A stretch of DNA of 64,000 bases from Haloarcula marina (GTDB taxonomy: Archaea; Halobacteriota; Halobacteria; Halobacteriales; Haloarculaceae): contig NZ_CP100404.1 of assembly GCF_024218775.1 (NCBI RefSeq), positions 124,001 to 188,000 on the forward strand. Direction: 5' to 3'. This document shows positions 17,645 through 23,390 of this stretch, piece by piece; position 1 is the stretch's first letter; every line of letters begins with the position of its first letter. The notes under the pieces are model-generated. The model saw only the letters and a program-made list of their open reading frames with translations. It did no database searches and was not told the DNA's origin. The position numbers and the translations under genes are program-made.

Positions 17645-17776
17645 GTTCGGTACTCCGCGCGGGCGGGCAAAAATATAGCGGACCCAGCGGACCGGTGGAC
17701 GGCGTGACGGGTCAGCCGACGGCCCGCCCCGACGGACACAACATTGATTGCCCGATGCTCACAAACCGCGGTTGAG

Positions 17777-18406
17777 ATGGACCCCGACGAGCGAGACGGC
17801 GACCGCTCCCTCCCGGCGTCGGGACCCCAGCGGAGGCCGCCGCCCTGGGTGTACGTTCTCGATGTCGCGACGAGCGTCCTCGCCGTCGTGGTCGTCGGCC
17901 TCTTGCTGTTCGCGGTCAGCGGCGTCTGGCCGCCGCTGGTCGCCGTCGAAAGTCCGAGCATGACGCCGAACGTCGAAACCGGGGACCTCGTGTTCGTCAT
18001 GGAAGCCGAACGCTTCCCGGGGCCCGACGCGCGCCACGGCGTGGTGACGGCGGAAGCGGGCGGGGGCCCGGGGTACGTGATGTTCGGTCGGGCGGGTGAC
18101 GTTATCGTGTTCCGGCCGGACGGCGACCCCGGACGGACGCCCGTCATCCACCGGGCGATGCTGTACGTCGCGGCCGACGAGAACTGGTACGACCGCGCCG
18201 ACCCCGACGCCGTCGGGGACGCCGGAAACTGTGCGGCCTTGCGGAACTGCCCGGCCCCCCACGCGGGATTCGTCACGAAGGGGGACTTCAACGGTCGGTA
18301 CGACCAAGCGACGACGACGAGCACCGTCGTCCGCCCGTCGTGGGTCGTCGGGACCGCCGAGTATCGAGTGGGTGGTCTCGGTTGGCTGCGGCTTCGGACG
18401 CTCTGA
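17777..18406 (+). CDS. Type I signal peptidase, archaeal Sec11 type (copy 1)
   Basis: The 209-residue protein has an N-terminal cytoplasmic stretch, one membrane helix (about residues 28-50), and an external catalytic domain. Ser61 in VESPSMTPN is the nucleophile and His125 in VIHRAM replaces the bacterial lysine, as in eukaryotic/archaeal Sec11. The conserved FVTKGDFNGRYDQ block follows. It cleaves signal peptides of secreted proteins. ATG 17777 is chosen; upstream in-frame codons lack an ATG. A second, closely related copy follows at 18468. Confidence 0.87.
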   Translation: MDPDERDGDRSLPASGPQRRPPPWVYVLDVATSVLAVVVVGLLLFAVSGVWPPLVAVESPSMTPNVETGDLVFVMEAERFPGPDARHGVVTAEAGGGPGYVMFGRAGDVIVFRPDGDPGRTPVIHRAMLYVAADENWYDRADPDAVGDAGNCAALRNCPAPHAGFVTKGDFNGRYDQATTTSTVVRPSWVVGTAEYRVGGLGWLRLRTL

Positions 18407-18467
18407 CCGCGCGCGCAAATCGAACAACGGAACGTTGATTTGGGCGCTTCCAGTATCGTTGATAGGA

Positions 18468-19166
18468 ATGTCCGGTGAGGACCGTCCGTCGGCGAGCGAC
18501 GAGCGCGACGACGACAGCCCCGACTTGCTCGTGTACGTCACCGACATCGTCGGGAGCGCCGGTGCCGTCTTGCTCGTCGGTCTCCTGTTGTTCACGGTCA
18601 GCGGCGTCTGGCCGCCGCTCGTCGCCATCGAAAGCCCGAGCATGGACCCCCACATCGAGAAGGGCGACCTCGTGTTCGTCATGGAAGAGCACCGATTCCC
18701 GGGGCCGGATGCGCAGTACGGTGTCGTTACGGCCGACGACGGCGACGGGTACGTCCGCTTCGAACAACCCGGCGACGTCATCGTCTACGCGCCCGACGGG
18801 AACACTCGGGCGACGCCCATCATTCACCGGGCGATGCTGTACGTCGAGGCCGACGAGGACTGGTACGACCGCGCCGACCCAGGCGCCATCGGGGGCGCGG
18901 ACAACTGCGCCCAACTCACGAACTGTCCGGCCCCGCACGCCGGGTTCATCACGAAAGGCGACAGCAACGGCCGCTACGACCAAGTGGGCGTCAGCCCCAT
19001 CAGCGACCCCGTCAAGCCGTCGTGGGTCGTCGGCACGGCGGAGTGGCGCGTGCCCTTCCTCGGAGAGATTCGACTCGGGTACAATCAGGCCGCGACGGCG
19101 AGCGTGACAGAGAACGGGACGCCGGTAACCAACGCTACCCAGAACGCGACCGCCGCGGCGCGCTAA
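18468..19166 (+). CDS. Type I signal peptidase, archaeal Sec11 type (copy 2)
   Basis: The 232-residue protein shares most motifs with the copy just upstream: VSGVWPPLVAIESPSMDP (nucleophile Ser58), IIHRAMLYVEAD (His120) and the GFITKGDSNGRYDQ block. It differs in a longer C-terminal tail with NGT/NAT/NQN-type N-glycosylation sequons (ENGTPVTNATQNATAAAR). The pair is a tandem duplication with 61 nt between genes. Signal peptidase next to orc1 and PolD small subunit is a familiar haloarchaeal origin neighbourhood. Its stop abuts the stop of orc1. Confidence 0.87.
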   Translation: MSGEDRPSASDERDDDSPDLLVYVTDIVGSAGAVLLVGLLLFTVSGVWPPLVAIESPSMDPHIEKGDLVFVMEEHRFPGPDAQYGVVTADDGDGYVRFEQPGDVIVYAPDGNTRATPIIHRAMLYVEADEDWYDRADPGAIGGADNCAQLTNCPAPHAGFITKGDSNGRYDQVGVSPISDPVKPSWVVGTAEWRVPFLGEIRLGYNQAATASVTENGTPVTNATQNATAAAR

Positions 19167-20693
19167 TCAGTTGTCGAAGCGCGCCTGCACGAACGGTTGC
19201 ACGTCGTCGATGTCGCCGAGTCGAGAGTCAGAGAGCAACACCGCCTCCGTCTCGTCGGTCGGAACAGACAGCGAAATCTCCTTGGTCCGGCCGTACCGGC
19301 CCTTCGAGACGACGACGGCGTTGACGATACCGAGCATGTCCAACTCGGAGATGAGGTCCGTCACTCGGCGCTGGGTCAGGACGTCGGCGTCTATCTCCTC
19401 ACAGAGGTTCTTGTAGATGTTGAACACCTCGCCGGTGTTGATGTTTCGCACGCCGTTTTTCTCTAAGAGGATGATGGCGAACAGGACGATTTTCGACTGG
19501 GTCGGGAGCGTCCGGACGACTTCGACGACCCGGTCGAGTTCTATCTTCTCTTGGGCCTGCCGGACGTGGTCCTCTTCGACTTGATCGGTCTGGTCGCGTT
19601 CGGCGAGTTCCCCCGCCGTCCGGAGGAGGTCGAGCGCCCGGCGGGCGTCCCCGTGTTCCTGCGCGGCGAAGGCCGCACACAGCGGGATGACGTCGTCCGA
19701 GAGCGCGTCGCCCTTGAACGCGACGTTGGCACGGGCCTGGAGGATGTCCCGCAACTGGTTGGCGTCGTACGGCGGGAAGACGATTTCCTCCTCGCCGAGA
19801 CTGGACTTGACGCGGGGGTCCAGAAAGTCGGTGAACTTCAGGTCGTTGGAGATGCCCATGATGGAGACACGGGAGTTCTCCAGTTCGGAGTTCATCCGCG
19901 AGAGGTTGTACAGCGTGTCGTCGCCGGACTTCTCGACGAGTTTGTCGATTTCGTCGAGCATGATGACCACGACGCGTTCGTGGTAGTCGACGGCGTCGAA
20001 AAACGAGGAGTACACCCGGTCGGTCGGCCATCCGGTCATCGGGACTTCCTCGAACTCCTTCTTGTCCTCGGCGAGCGAGTCGATTTTCTCGTCGACGGCC
20101 GCGAGACTGTCGAACTGCGTGTCGGCCAGTTCGCTGGCGTCCTCGCGCACGCGAGACTCCAGCGCCTCCAGTTCGTCGATTCGGTCGTCGATGACCCCGA
20201 CGTTCTTGTTGATGAACTTGTTCGCGAGTTGGGCGAGGACCCGATACTGGGTGTCCGTCACTTCGCAGTTGATGTACTCGACTTCACACGGGACCTCGTA
20301 CTTCTGGGAGGTGGTTTCCAGTTCCTCGCTGACGAACTTCGCGCTCGCAGTCTTGCCCGTCCCAGTCTTCCCGTAGATGAGGATGTTCGACGGCGTATCG
20401 CCCCGGAGCGCCGTGACGAGGATGGTCGCCATGTTGTTTATCTGCTCCTCGCGGTGGGGGAGTTTGTGCGGCGTGTAGGAGGGGCGAAGCACCTCCTTGT
20501 TCTCGAATATCGGCTCGCCTTCGAGCAAGTCGTCGAACAGTCCGCGCGACGCCTCGTCGGAGTCGTCGCCACTCCCGGCGTCGAGGTTGTCGAGGACGAC
20601 GTCGTCGAGGTCTGGCATCGTCGACTCGTGCTGTGTCGACCGGTCGGTCGACGCGTCGTCCGTCGAATTCGGGTCGTGGCTTGGGTCGGTCAT
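19167..20693 (-). CDS. orc1: Orc1/Cdc6 replication initiator
   Basis: The 508-residue AAA+ ATPase has an acidic N-terminal extension (1-60), Walker A GKTGTGKT (108-115), a charged coiled insert (DDRIDELEALESRVRED, about 170-230), Walker B MLDEIDK, sensor 1 GISNDLKF, sensor 2 HGDARRALDLLRTAGE, and a C-terminal winged helix that ends near residue 480. The winged helix and the initiator-specific motif bind ORB elements. The gene faces away from the 1-kb non-coding region that carries ORBs, the standard arrangement of an active haloarchaeal origin. An in-frame ATG at 20618 would remove 25 residues of low-complexity N-terminus. Confidence 0.92.
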   Translation of the reverse strand: MTDPSHDPNSTDDASTDRSTQHESTMPDLDDVVLDNLDAGSGDDSDEASRGLFDDLLEGEPIFENKEVLRPSYTPHKLPHREEQINNMATILVTALRGDTPSNILIYGKTGTGKTASAKFVSEELETTSQKYEVPCEVEYINCEVTDTQYRVLAQLANKFINKNVGVIDDRIDELEALESRVREDASELADTQFDSLAAVDEKIDSLAEDKKEFEEVPMTGWPTDRVYSSFFDAVDYHERVVVIMLDEIDKLVEKSGDDTLYNLSRMNSELENSRVSIMGISNDLKFTDFLDPRVKSSLGEEEIVFPPYDANQLRDILQARANVAFKGDALSDDVIPLCAAFAAQEHGDARRALDLLRTAGELAERDQTDQVEEDHVRQAQEKIELDRVVEVVRTLPTQSKIVLFAIILLEKNGVRNINTGEVFNIYKNLCEEIDADVLTQRRVTDLISELDMLGIVNAVVVSKGRYGRTKEISLSVPTDETEAVLLSDSRLGDIDDVQPFVQARFDN

Positions 20694-21103: not shown

Positions 21104-21132
21104 CCCCCCCACCCCCTCGTTTCGGGTGGAAC
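21104..21132 (-). other. Strong ORB element (left)
   Basis: The minus strand reads GTTCCACCCGAAACGAGGGG followed by GTGGGGGGG. It differs from the right element by only two bases over 28 positions and has the long G-string of a full origin recognition box. Its G-run points away from the AT-rich centre. Confidence 0.85.
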
Positions 21133-21160
21133 GACTGAAGAGGGTGGGAGGGGGGTCAGC

Positions 21161-21271
21161 AGTCTGGGATAGTCTGGTCTAGTCTAGGAAAGATTTAATA
21201 CGTATTGTATAAAACCAAATCCGCACTAGAGAGAAGAAAAGTTCTAGTTCTAGATAAGTGTCCTAGACTAG
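21161..21271. other. CTAG-rich, 10-bp-phased AT-rich tract (candidate unwinding element)
   Basis: Three AGTCT units start at 21161, 21171 and 21181, exactly one helical turn apart. Seven CTAG tetramers occur in 93 bp (21179, 21184, 21226, 21244, 21250, 21263, 21268), with another at 21041. CTAG is rare elsewhere in the window. Between them is AGATTTAATACGTATTGTAT, the most AT-rich part of the region. The tract lies between the two strong inverted ORBs. Confidence 0.7.
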
Positions 21272-21378
21272 CTGTAGAAGGCTCTACTACCCGGAAATCT
21301 CCAGTGTAGTTGCTGCGTCCCCTCCCAAATGGGCGTGTCTCCCCACGAAATCCAGCATCCGGGGGAGGCCGTTTGGCC

Positions 21379-21406
21379 GTTCCACCTGAAACGAAGGGGT
21401 GGGGGG
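21379..21406 (+). other. Strong ORB element (right)
   Basis: GTTCCACCTGAAACGAAGGG followed by GTGGGGGG is a full origin recognition box, inverted relative to the left element with 246 bp between them. The G-run points right, away from the AT-rich centre. Confidence 0.87.
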
Positions 21407-21685: not shown

Positions 21686-22327
21686 ATGGGAATCTTAACA
21701 AACCTCAAAGATAGCATTTCGCGGGCAGCATCGACGCTGTTCTCCGAGGAAGACCCCAAGCGAATCGGCATCTACGGGCCGCCGAACGCGGGGAAGACGA
21801 CGCTGGCCAATCGCATTGCACGCGACTGGACCGGCGACGCCGTCGGTCCGGAGAGCCACGTCCCACACGAGACGCGACGCGCGCGTCGCAAGGAGGACGT
21901 CGAGATAGAGCGAGACGGGAAGAAGGTGACCATCGACATCGTCGACACGCCGGGCGTGACGACGAAAGTCGACTACACCGAGTTCTTAGAGCACGACATG
22001 GAGAAAGACGACGCGGTCCGTCGCTCGCGGGAAGCCACGGAAGGGGTCGCGGAAGCGATGCACTGGCTTCGCGAGGACGTCGACGGCGTCATCTACGTGC
22101 TCGACTCGGCGACGGACCCCTTTACGCAGGTGAACACGATGCTCATCGGCATCATCGAGAGTCAGGACCTCCCGGTGCTGATTCTCGCCAACAAGATCGA
22201 CTTAGAGGAGTCGTCGGTCCAGCGGATTCGTAACGCGTACCCACAACACGAGACCATCCCGCTCTCCGCGCTGGAGGGCGACAACATGGACGAGGTCTAC
22301 GACAAAATCGCGGAGTACTTCGGGTGA
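21686..22327 (+). CDS. oapA: Small GTPase OapA/ArvA
   Basis: The 213-residue GTPase has an amphipathic N-terminal helix (1-20), G1 GPPNAGKTTL (31-40), G3 DTPGV (87-91), G4 NKID and G5 SALEG, with an Era-like order. This is the origin-associated protein A of haloarchaea, recently shown in Haloferax to drive extracellular vesicle formation and renamed ArvA. A GGAGG lies 5 nt before the ATG, so unlike most genes here it seems to have a leadered mRNA; a GC-rich hairpin (GCCGCC/GGCGGC) precedes it. It heads a three-gene overlapping operon. Confidence 0.88.
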   Translation: MGILTNLKDSISRAASTLFSEEDPKRIGIYGPPNAGKTTLANRIARDWTGDAVGPESHVPHETRRARRKEDVEIERDGKKVTIDIVDTPGVTTKVDYTEFLEHDMEKDDAVRRSREATEGVAEAMHWLREDVDGVIYVLDSATDPFTQVNTMLIGIIESQDLPVLILANKIDLEESSVQRIRNAYPQHETIPLSALEGDNMDEVYDKIAEYFG

Positions 22328-22716
22328 CCAAGATGGCAGAAGTGAAAGACCCCGACGACGGCGTGCAGATAGACCTCATCAGCGGCGAGCGGATGGACGG
22401 CCTCGCCTCGATGGAGAAGATACGCATCATCCTCGACGGGGTGCGCGACGGCAACATCGTCATCCTCGAAGAGGGCCTCTCGCCAGACGAGGAGTCCCGA
22501 CTCATCGAGGTGACGATGACCGAAATCAGCCCCGACGAGTTCAACGGCATCGAGATTGAGACCTACCCCAAGTCCGAGGCCGCCGACGCGAGCATCCTCG
22601 ACCGAATCATGGGGAAGGAGTCGACGAAGAAGCTCACGGTCATCGGCCCGGCCAACCAAATCGAGACGCTTCACAAGGACGAAACCCTCATCAGCGCGCT
22701 CGTTTCCCGGAAATAA
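22324..22716 (+). CDS. oapB: OapB/ArvB family protein (DUF2073)
   Basis: The 130-residue protein is the DUF2073 family that follows the OapA GTPase in haloarchaea. Visible features are DLISGERMDGLASMEKIRIILDGV cut short of a long helix, EEGLSPDEESRLIE, and the C-terminal LTVIGPANQIETLHKDE. The GTG start at 22324 overlaps the oapA stop (GTGA), giving translational coupling; ATG 22333 is an alternative. It is expected to work with ArvA in vesicle formation; its biochemical role is not known. Confidence 0.85.
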   Translation: MTKMAEVKDPDDGVQIDLISGERMDGLASMEKIRIILDGVRDGNIVILEEGLSPDEESRLIEVTMTEISPDEFNGIEIETYPKSEAADASILDRIMGKESTKKLTVIGPANQIETLHKDETLISALVSRK

Positions 22717-23390
22717 TGCCCCACCAGTGTACGAACTGTGGCCGCGCGTTCGACGACGGGTCCAAGGAGATGCTCTCGGGATGCCCGGACTGTGGCGGCA
22801 ACAAGTTCCAGTTCCGACCCGACGGCGTCGACGCGTCGACCCCGCCTGAGTCCGACGCGGAACCGCCAGAACCGCCCGAACCGCCGGGCGGCGAGGGCGG
22901 CGTCGCGCGCACCGTCGGCAAGACGGCGGCGACGGTACGGGACATCGTCGGGGGCGGCCGCGACAACCCCGGCATCGGCGCTGAGGGGAACGGTTCCACT
23001 CGAAACGAACGCGACCCCGGCCCTGCCGGTACCGTCGACGCGCGCGCGGCCGACACCGAAGACGCGGCCCAAGCCAGCGCCCGTGCGGACGTGGTCACGC
23101 CTGACGAACTCCCGGACCCACAGGAGCAGGCCGACGCCGACGGCGAGCACCGCTTCGAGTCCGTCGGAGGCAAAGCGGACGCAATCGAGTCCGACACCGA
23201 GACGACCGACCGGCCGGACCTGAGCGAACTCCGCGAGGAACTCAACGACCAGTTCGAGTCCATCAAGGTGCTCGAACCGGGGCAGTACGAACTAAACCTG
23301 ATGGAACTGTACGACCGCGAGGAGTACATCGTCGCACTCCAAGAAGACGGCCGCTACTCCATTCAGGTCCCCGAGACGATTCGCGAGTAG
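22716..23390 (+). CDS. oapC: OapC/ArvC family zinc-ribbon protein
   Basis: The 224-residue protein starts with a zinc ribbon (C5-x2-C8 and C-x2-C near residue 24), followed by a long Pro/Glu/Asp-rich disordered linker (about 35-165), and ends with a folded domain containing LREELNDQFESIKVLEPGQY and LMELYDREEYIVALQEDGRY. It is the third member of the oap/arv operon; its ATG overlaps the oapB TAA (TAATG). The linker DNA at 22993-23007 contains the ORB core with one mismatch. Confidence 0.85.
   Translation: MPHQCTNCGRAFDDGSKEMLSGCPDCGGNKFQFRPDGVDASTPPESDAEPPEPPEPPGGEGGVARTVGKTAATVRDIVGGGRDNPGIGAEGNGSTRNERDPGPAGTVDARAADTEDAAQASARADVVTPDELPDPQEQADADGEHRFESVGGKADAIESDTETTDRPDLSELREELNDQFESIKVLEPGQYELNLMELYDREEYIVALQEDGRYSIQVPETIRE

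Follow-up and report, generated by a model that had tools for sequence, protein, structure and literature searches.

The closest described system to the one analysed here is that of Blow et al. 2016, who saw CTAGs clustered upstream of orc1/cdc6 genes in Haloarchaea, found the clusters to correlate with an orphan methylase and suggested that they act in replication (PMC4752239); the text of that paper prints the motif as CATG and the figure legend prints it as CTAG (PMC4752239, Fig. 6D). A role in replication was doubted by Ouellette et al. 2018, who saw the motif enriched in Hfx. volcanii near oriC2 only. The modification, m4C at CTAG, has been measured in Haloarcula marismortui, with 89% detected (PMC6606915), and the literature treats the function of the class-wide haloarchaeal CTAG methylation as unknown or as an open question (PMC6471742, PMC6606915). 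The system of Blow et al. and the present one are alike in the motif, the class, the cluster upstream of an initiator gene, the correlation with an orphan methyltransferase and the proposed control of replication. They differ in scale, since density was taken over 50-kb regions in that work (PMC4752239), whereas the present analysis maps the sites to the unwinding core, between the ORBs; 175 resolved origins are counted, and phylogenetic regression and site-level conservation are added. The link between CTAG clusters and an orphan methyltransferase at haloarchaeal origins is already published by Blow et al. 2016. What is new is the resolution to the unwinding core, the comparison with lineages that lost the methyltransferase gene zim, and a second core element, WAACMRDAYCCGYA, that is also retained in the absence of zim.

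The window is a 64,000-nucleotide stretch of the Haloarcula marina genome, and the feature under study in it is the core of oriC1, the primary origin of haloarchaea. An orc1/cdc6 gene on one side and a GTPase-oapB-oapC operon on the other make up the conserved haloarchaeal oriC1 setting, and between them inverted ORBs with G-strings surround an AT-rich core (Table 1). The elements are nested, from the outside inwards, as the ORBs, a G-rich inverted repeat and an 11-nt inverted repeat carrying pairs of CTAGs, together with the AT-rich core. The first-pass annotation had taken this stretch for an origin core, and the inverted ORBs, the G-rich repeats and the Orc1/Cdc6 and OapB/OapC genes bear that out. 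The H. hispanica oriC1 has the same inverted G-string ORBs, inner G-rich inverted repeat, AT-rich core and adjoining cdc6A-type initiator, and the left arm of our inner repeat matches the place of its enhancer repeat (PMC3936714). The two differ in that origin activity was measured in H. hispanica, whereas the origin in the window is known from sequence alone; the text of the H. hispanica paper makes no mention of CTAG (PMC3936714). Elsewhere in the window, at 17744-19166, two adjacent proteins resemble each other, contain an ESPSM motif like that of signal peptidase I and appear by eye to be a tandem duplication.

Table 1. Features of the oriC1 region, in coordinates of the window.
Feature	Position	Strand	Remarks
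orc1/cdc6 initiator gene of oriC1	19167..20693	-	NF001625 E=1e-197; Pfam Cdc6_C, Cdc6_lid
Left ORB with G-string	21105..21133	-	29-nt inverted repeat, 93% complementary; ORB pattern, 0 mismatches
Inner G-rich inverted repeat, left arm	21145..21161	+	
Three AGTCT units, exact 10-bp spacing (21161, 21171, 21181)	21161..21185	+	Not conserved in relatives
AT-rich core, presumed duplex unwinding element	21170..21259	.	33-35% GC vs 67% in window
Seven CTAG sites (predicted m4C)	21179, 21184, 21226, 21244, 21250, 21263, 21268; cluster 21179..21271	.	
Perfect 11-nt inverted repeat, left arm CTAGTCTAGGA, two CTAGs	21179..21189	+	
Second core element AAACCAAATCCGCA (class consensus WAACMRDAYCCGYA), CTAG 21226 directly after	21212..21225	+	
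AGTTCT direct repeat (21240, 21246), overlaps two CTAG sites	21240..21251	+	
Perfect 11-nt inverted repeat, right arm TCCTAGACTAG, two CTAGs	21261..21271	-	
CTAG invariant in ten of ten aligned Haloarcula-genus origins	21268..21271	.	Alignment
Inner G-rich inverted repeat, right arm	21311..21327	-	
Right ORB with G-string	21378..21406	+	Partner arm of 29-nt inverted repeat; ORB pattern
Small Era-like GTPase gene, oriC1 marker in Halobacteria	21686..22327	+	
oapB, origin-associated protein	22324..22716	+	PF09846 E=4e-42
oapC, origin-associated protein	22716..23390	+	PF09845 E=6e-29

Seven CTAGs within 93 bp (21179-21271), together with scarcity of the motif elsewhere, had been noticed at the outset, and both hold: 80 CTAGs would be expected in the whole window and 21 are present. 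When 21161-21271 was shuffled with its dinucleotides preserved, the mean count was 1.6 and none of 5000 trials reached seven, and the excess over the full ORB-to-ORB interval is likewise significant (P=0.001). Among the 4-nt palindromes, CTAG is the only one with a peak in the core. The whole 3.74-Mb genome was then scanned for three CTAGs with gaps of at most 30 nt; it contains only three such triplets, which overlap and all lie in the oriC1 core. All seven sites are in or around the AT-rich core, with none inside either ORB, and about 350 bp separate the orc1 start from the closest CTAG.

The genome encodes two DNA methylases of the PF01555 family. One of them, zim (G000:C1:1068256-1069281), aligns over 94% of its length with the methylase of plasmid pFZ1, at 48% identity. 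The gene of the pFZ1 methylase adjoins an MjaI-family endonuclease gene, and we take this methylase to be M.MthZI. Among CTAG homologues of the haloarchaeal enzyme, M.MthZI is the one characterised by experiment (PMC5867850). A family search of the genome found no MjaI-type endonuclease, and zim therefore looks like an orphan. It has no conserved partner gene beside it, being the only gene common to 20 of 20 neighbourhoods, with the next real gene in 6 of 20. The first-pass annotation had named a conserved CTAG methyltransferase, Zim, in Halobacteria, and this genome does encode it. Like the system of Blow et al. 2016, this one combines a CTAG cluster at an orc1/cdc6 origin, an orphan methyltransferase and a correlation of the two across genomes. 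The second PF01555 methylase is encoded at L001:1417-2808 (G000:C1:661310-662203).

The correlation was drawn from 392 Halobacteria genomes searched for zim, of which 59 have no convincing homologue and about ten a divergent one. Using the GTPase gene to locate oriC1, we fetched the locus from 216 genomes and recognised an ORB pair in 175. Enrichment at orthologous origins, which the idea of a methylation-linked element calls for, is found in genomes with zim and tracks the gene among these 175 origins. The interval between the ORBs holds a mean of 3.35 CTAGs in genomes with zim (two or more in 98/127), 1.6 where zim is divergent, and 0.18 in genomes without it (two or more in 0/38). As densities, these correspond to 14.9/kb between the ORBs and 0.73/kb outside with zim, and to 0.92/kb and 0.32/kb without. 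The ratio of observed to expected CTAGs in shuffles is 2.3-3.6 in the groups with zim and 0-0.44 in those without, and among 16 palindromes compared in this way CTAG alone tracks zim. A held-out set of 61 origins from named genomes, outside the counts of the 175, has a mean of 4.5 CTAGs. There are also 14 origins with zim that lack any CTAG.

These counts bear on two explanations that need no methylation. The CTAGs might be intrinsically flexible steps, prone to kinking, at which the core melts more easily; the TA step is weak, and the sites do lie in and around the AT-rich core. However, oriC1 cores without zim keep their ORBs and AT-rich core and have almost no CTAG, and no other TA-containing palindrome is enriched to the same extent in origins with zim, which makes this account rather improbable. 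Alternatively, CTAG might be purged genome-wide and merely survive in AT-rich non-coding DNA. The motif is indeed avoided elsewhere, but its count in the core is above the shuffle expectation and not just at it, equally AT-rich cores without zim are almost free of it, and its positions are conserved (see below); we give this explanation very little credence.

The genomes without zim belong mostly to family f4, many of them to Halorubrum, and f4 origins with zim have fewer CTAGs. The Halorubrum origins that have zim and a recognised ORB pair contain no CTAG, as if zim might have been regained later. GATC was considered as a substitute motif in origins without zim and rejected, Halorubrum having 17 against 12 expected and no cluster. 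Many Halorubrum-type genomes (g20; L012, L014, L017, L031) have no ORB pair upstream of the GTPase gene, and their oriC1 seems to be displaced or changed. A Halopenitus genome without zim (G017, genus code g23) has 16 tight CTAG triplets genome-wide and none at its oriC1 locus (L007), the reverse of the Haloarcula pattern.

Since shared descent could produce such an association, with zim lost mainly in one family whose origins were already poor in CTAG, the comparison was repeated by PGLS with square-root-transformed CTAG counts, using a tree of GTPase-OapB-OapC codons from 131 genomes. Under nearly full phylogenetic covariance zim has an effect of 0.64 ± 0.19 (P=0.0008); the estimate is 1.03 ± 0.23 (P=2e-5) when Halorubrum is left out and 0.39 ± 0.21 (P=0.07) when only family f4 is considered. 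Sister pairs scored for two or more CTAGs give about 2.7 in which the origin changed in the same direction as zim, 0 in the opposite direction and the rest tied, a sample (n=6) below the power of a sign test. With six independent sister pairs on supported branches, the association is strong but has few losses behind it. A non-causal association of this sort has in its favour the concentration of losses in f4 and Halorubrum, the lower counts of f4 origins that retain zim and the powerless sister-pair test. Against it are the PGLS result and two contrasts within genera that agree in direction. In genus g9 of family f1, to which the H. marina genome also belongs, a genome with zim (G228) has three CTAGs and one without it (G343, assembly 90% complete) has zero, with the remaining core recognisable; in genus g22 of family f4 the contrast runs the same way. 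The CTAG tetrads are also much better conserved than the DNA next to them. In the Haloarcula-genus alignment they are shared at the same position at 0.46, vs 0.17 for tetrads of equal GC, and in family f3 at 0.62 vs 0.09; in these alignments the tetrads hold their position while adjacent DNA diverges. We regard phylogenetic inertia as an improbable explanation of the association.

The core contains a second conserved element, in most genera situated some 65-80 nt inward of the left ORB. If up to one mismatch is allowed, WAACMRDAYCCGYA occurs in 51/72 genus representatives vs 1/360 shuffles, and in 48/61 of the held-out named origins. The exact sequence is found at only two places in the genome, one of them 21212-21225. 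It is retained in several origins without zim. A CTAG follows it within 10 nt in 39/88 origins with zim vs 0/9 without. In the literature examined we found no earlier description of this element, which is not proof that there is none, and we know of no haloarchaeal protein that binds it. In place it is comparable to the UBP-bound ucm element of the Sulfolobus oriC1 unwinding element, also a short conserved core element present in several origins (PMC12141716); the likeness is one of position.

A second replicon, contig C2, has an orc gene followed by a different inverted G-rich ORB-like repeat with an AT-rich core (L303:2754-2970). Three CTAGs (2785, 2829, 2835) lie between the repeats, in the AT-rich core, and WAACMRDAYCCGYA is present with one mismatch, between 2783 and 2941 of L303. 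A further orc locus (L302) has G-rich inverted repeats, and the AT-rich core and CTAGs are absent from it. The C2 origin is relevant to the proposal that the oriC1 cluster is an operator, its CTAG repeats binding a transcription regulator or lying in a promoter; methylation would then tune the transcription of orc1 or of the GTPase-oapB-oapC operon. In Haloferax lucertense, the regions upstream of start sites are enriched in CTAG (PMC11001535), and the core contains a TATA-like GAAAGATTTAATA that is largely conserved in Haloarcula. A bacterial promoter scan, not suited to archaea, returned no match. However, about 490 bp separate the cluster from the start of orc1 and 415 bp from that of the GTPase gene, the conservation is framed by two ORBs, and this other CTAG-bearing origin of the genome adjoins a different orc gene on a different replicon. 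A role as operator is thus unlikely, though we rate it a little above the flexible-step and inertia accounts.

Comparison of sequences demonstrates the location of the sites between the ORBs, their uniqueness in the genome, the presence of zim, the positional conservation of CTAG and its class-wide dependence on zim. On balance we lean towards an unwinding core of oriC1 that is dense in recognition sites for the orphan m4C methyltransferase Zim and that modulates re-opening through them. The core CTAGs would be methylated in H. marina and would turn hemimethylated once the origin fires; hemimethylation, or an effect of m4C on melting or on a core-bound protein, would then modulate when Orc1/MCM reopen the origin. 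This gating at the core CTAGs is what we infer. Methylation would be a non-essential fine control of the origin. Counting against this reading are the small number of independent zim losses, the 14 origins that have zim and lack CTAG, the negative searches for a SeqA relative and for a conserved neighbour of zim, and the normal growth of an Hfx. volcanii strain lacking HVO_0794 together with other RM genes; as the authors of that work remark, Hfx. volcanii can also grow without origins (PMC5867850), and a non-essential role would fit. The objection of 2018 is met here only by evidence from the wider class. A possibility that we consider more doubtful is an m4C licensing switch in Halobacteria, in which Zim-methylated CTAGs around WAACMRDAYCCGYA would be read by a protein unrelated to SeqA, or would act directly via melting, so as to block immediate refiring of a newly copied, hemimethylated origin; on loss of zim, the CTAGs would decay and the core element WAACMRDAYCCGYA would remain.

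The first-pass annotation drew a parallel to the GATC cluster of E. coli oriC. The part of it that stands is the dependence of the cluster on zim throughout Halobacteria, the behaviour to be expected of a methylation-linked element; as in the Dam/SeqA system, sites of an orphan methyltransferase cluster at the origin far above expectation and co-occur with the enzyme. The part that does not is a SeqA-type reader. The search for a SeqA-like binder found none, the family PF03925 being absent from the genome, and sequestration would be a putative feature here. The systems also differ in the modified base, m4C instead of m6A, and in that the CTAGs of this origin neither overlap the initiator boxes nor adjoin the start of the initiator gene. 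The dependence of individual core sites on zim, over 175 origins, strengthens the proposal made in 2016 and doubted in 2018 and names the exact bases, and the link between CTAG and zim at origins makes the proposed role of methylation in starting archaeal replication directly testable. If the gating is true, it would be a methylation control of archaeal origin firing with a modified base and readers unlike those of Dam/SeqA.

The sequence had also suggested a helically phased arrangement. The three AGTCT units 10 bp apart and the AGTTCT direct repeat are both present, and any 5-mer occurring three times at 10-11 bp spacing is seen in 0.05% of shuffles. The argument from phasing nevertheless fails, because none of the nine other origins of the genus Haloarcula that were compared has the AGTCT triple, and the seven clustered CTAGs have no periodicity of 10-11 bp (P=0.99). 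As a general trait, helical phasing of CTAG was rejected, being absent in Haloarcula and most families. Only family f3 shows it. There (e.g., L195, L212, L216), CTAGs recur in many genera at positions 34, 83, 103, 125, 135 and 166 from the left ORB, spaced by about 10.4 bp or multiples of it, and five of the six fit a 10.4-bp period; for these five the period is 10.2-10.4 bp, and P is 0.002 for periods of 10-11 bp and 0.019 when any period is allowed, in what is one lineage.
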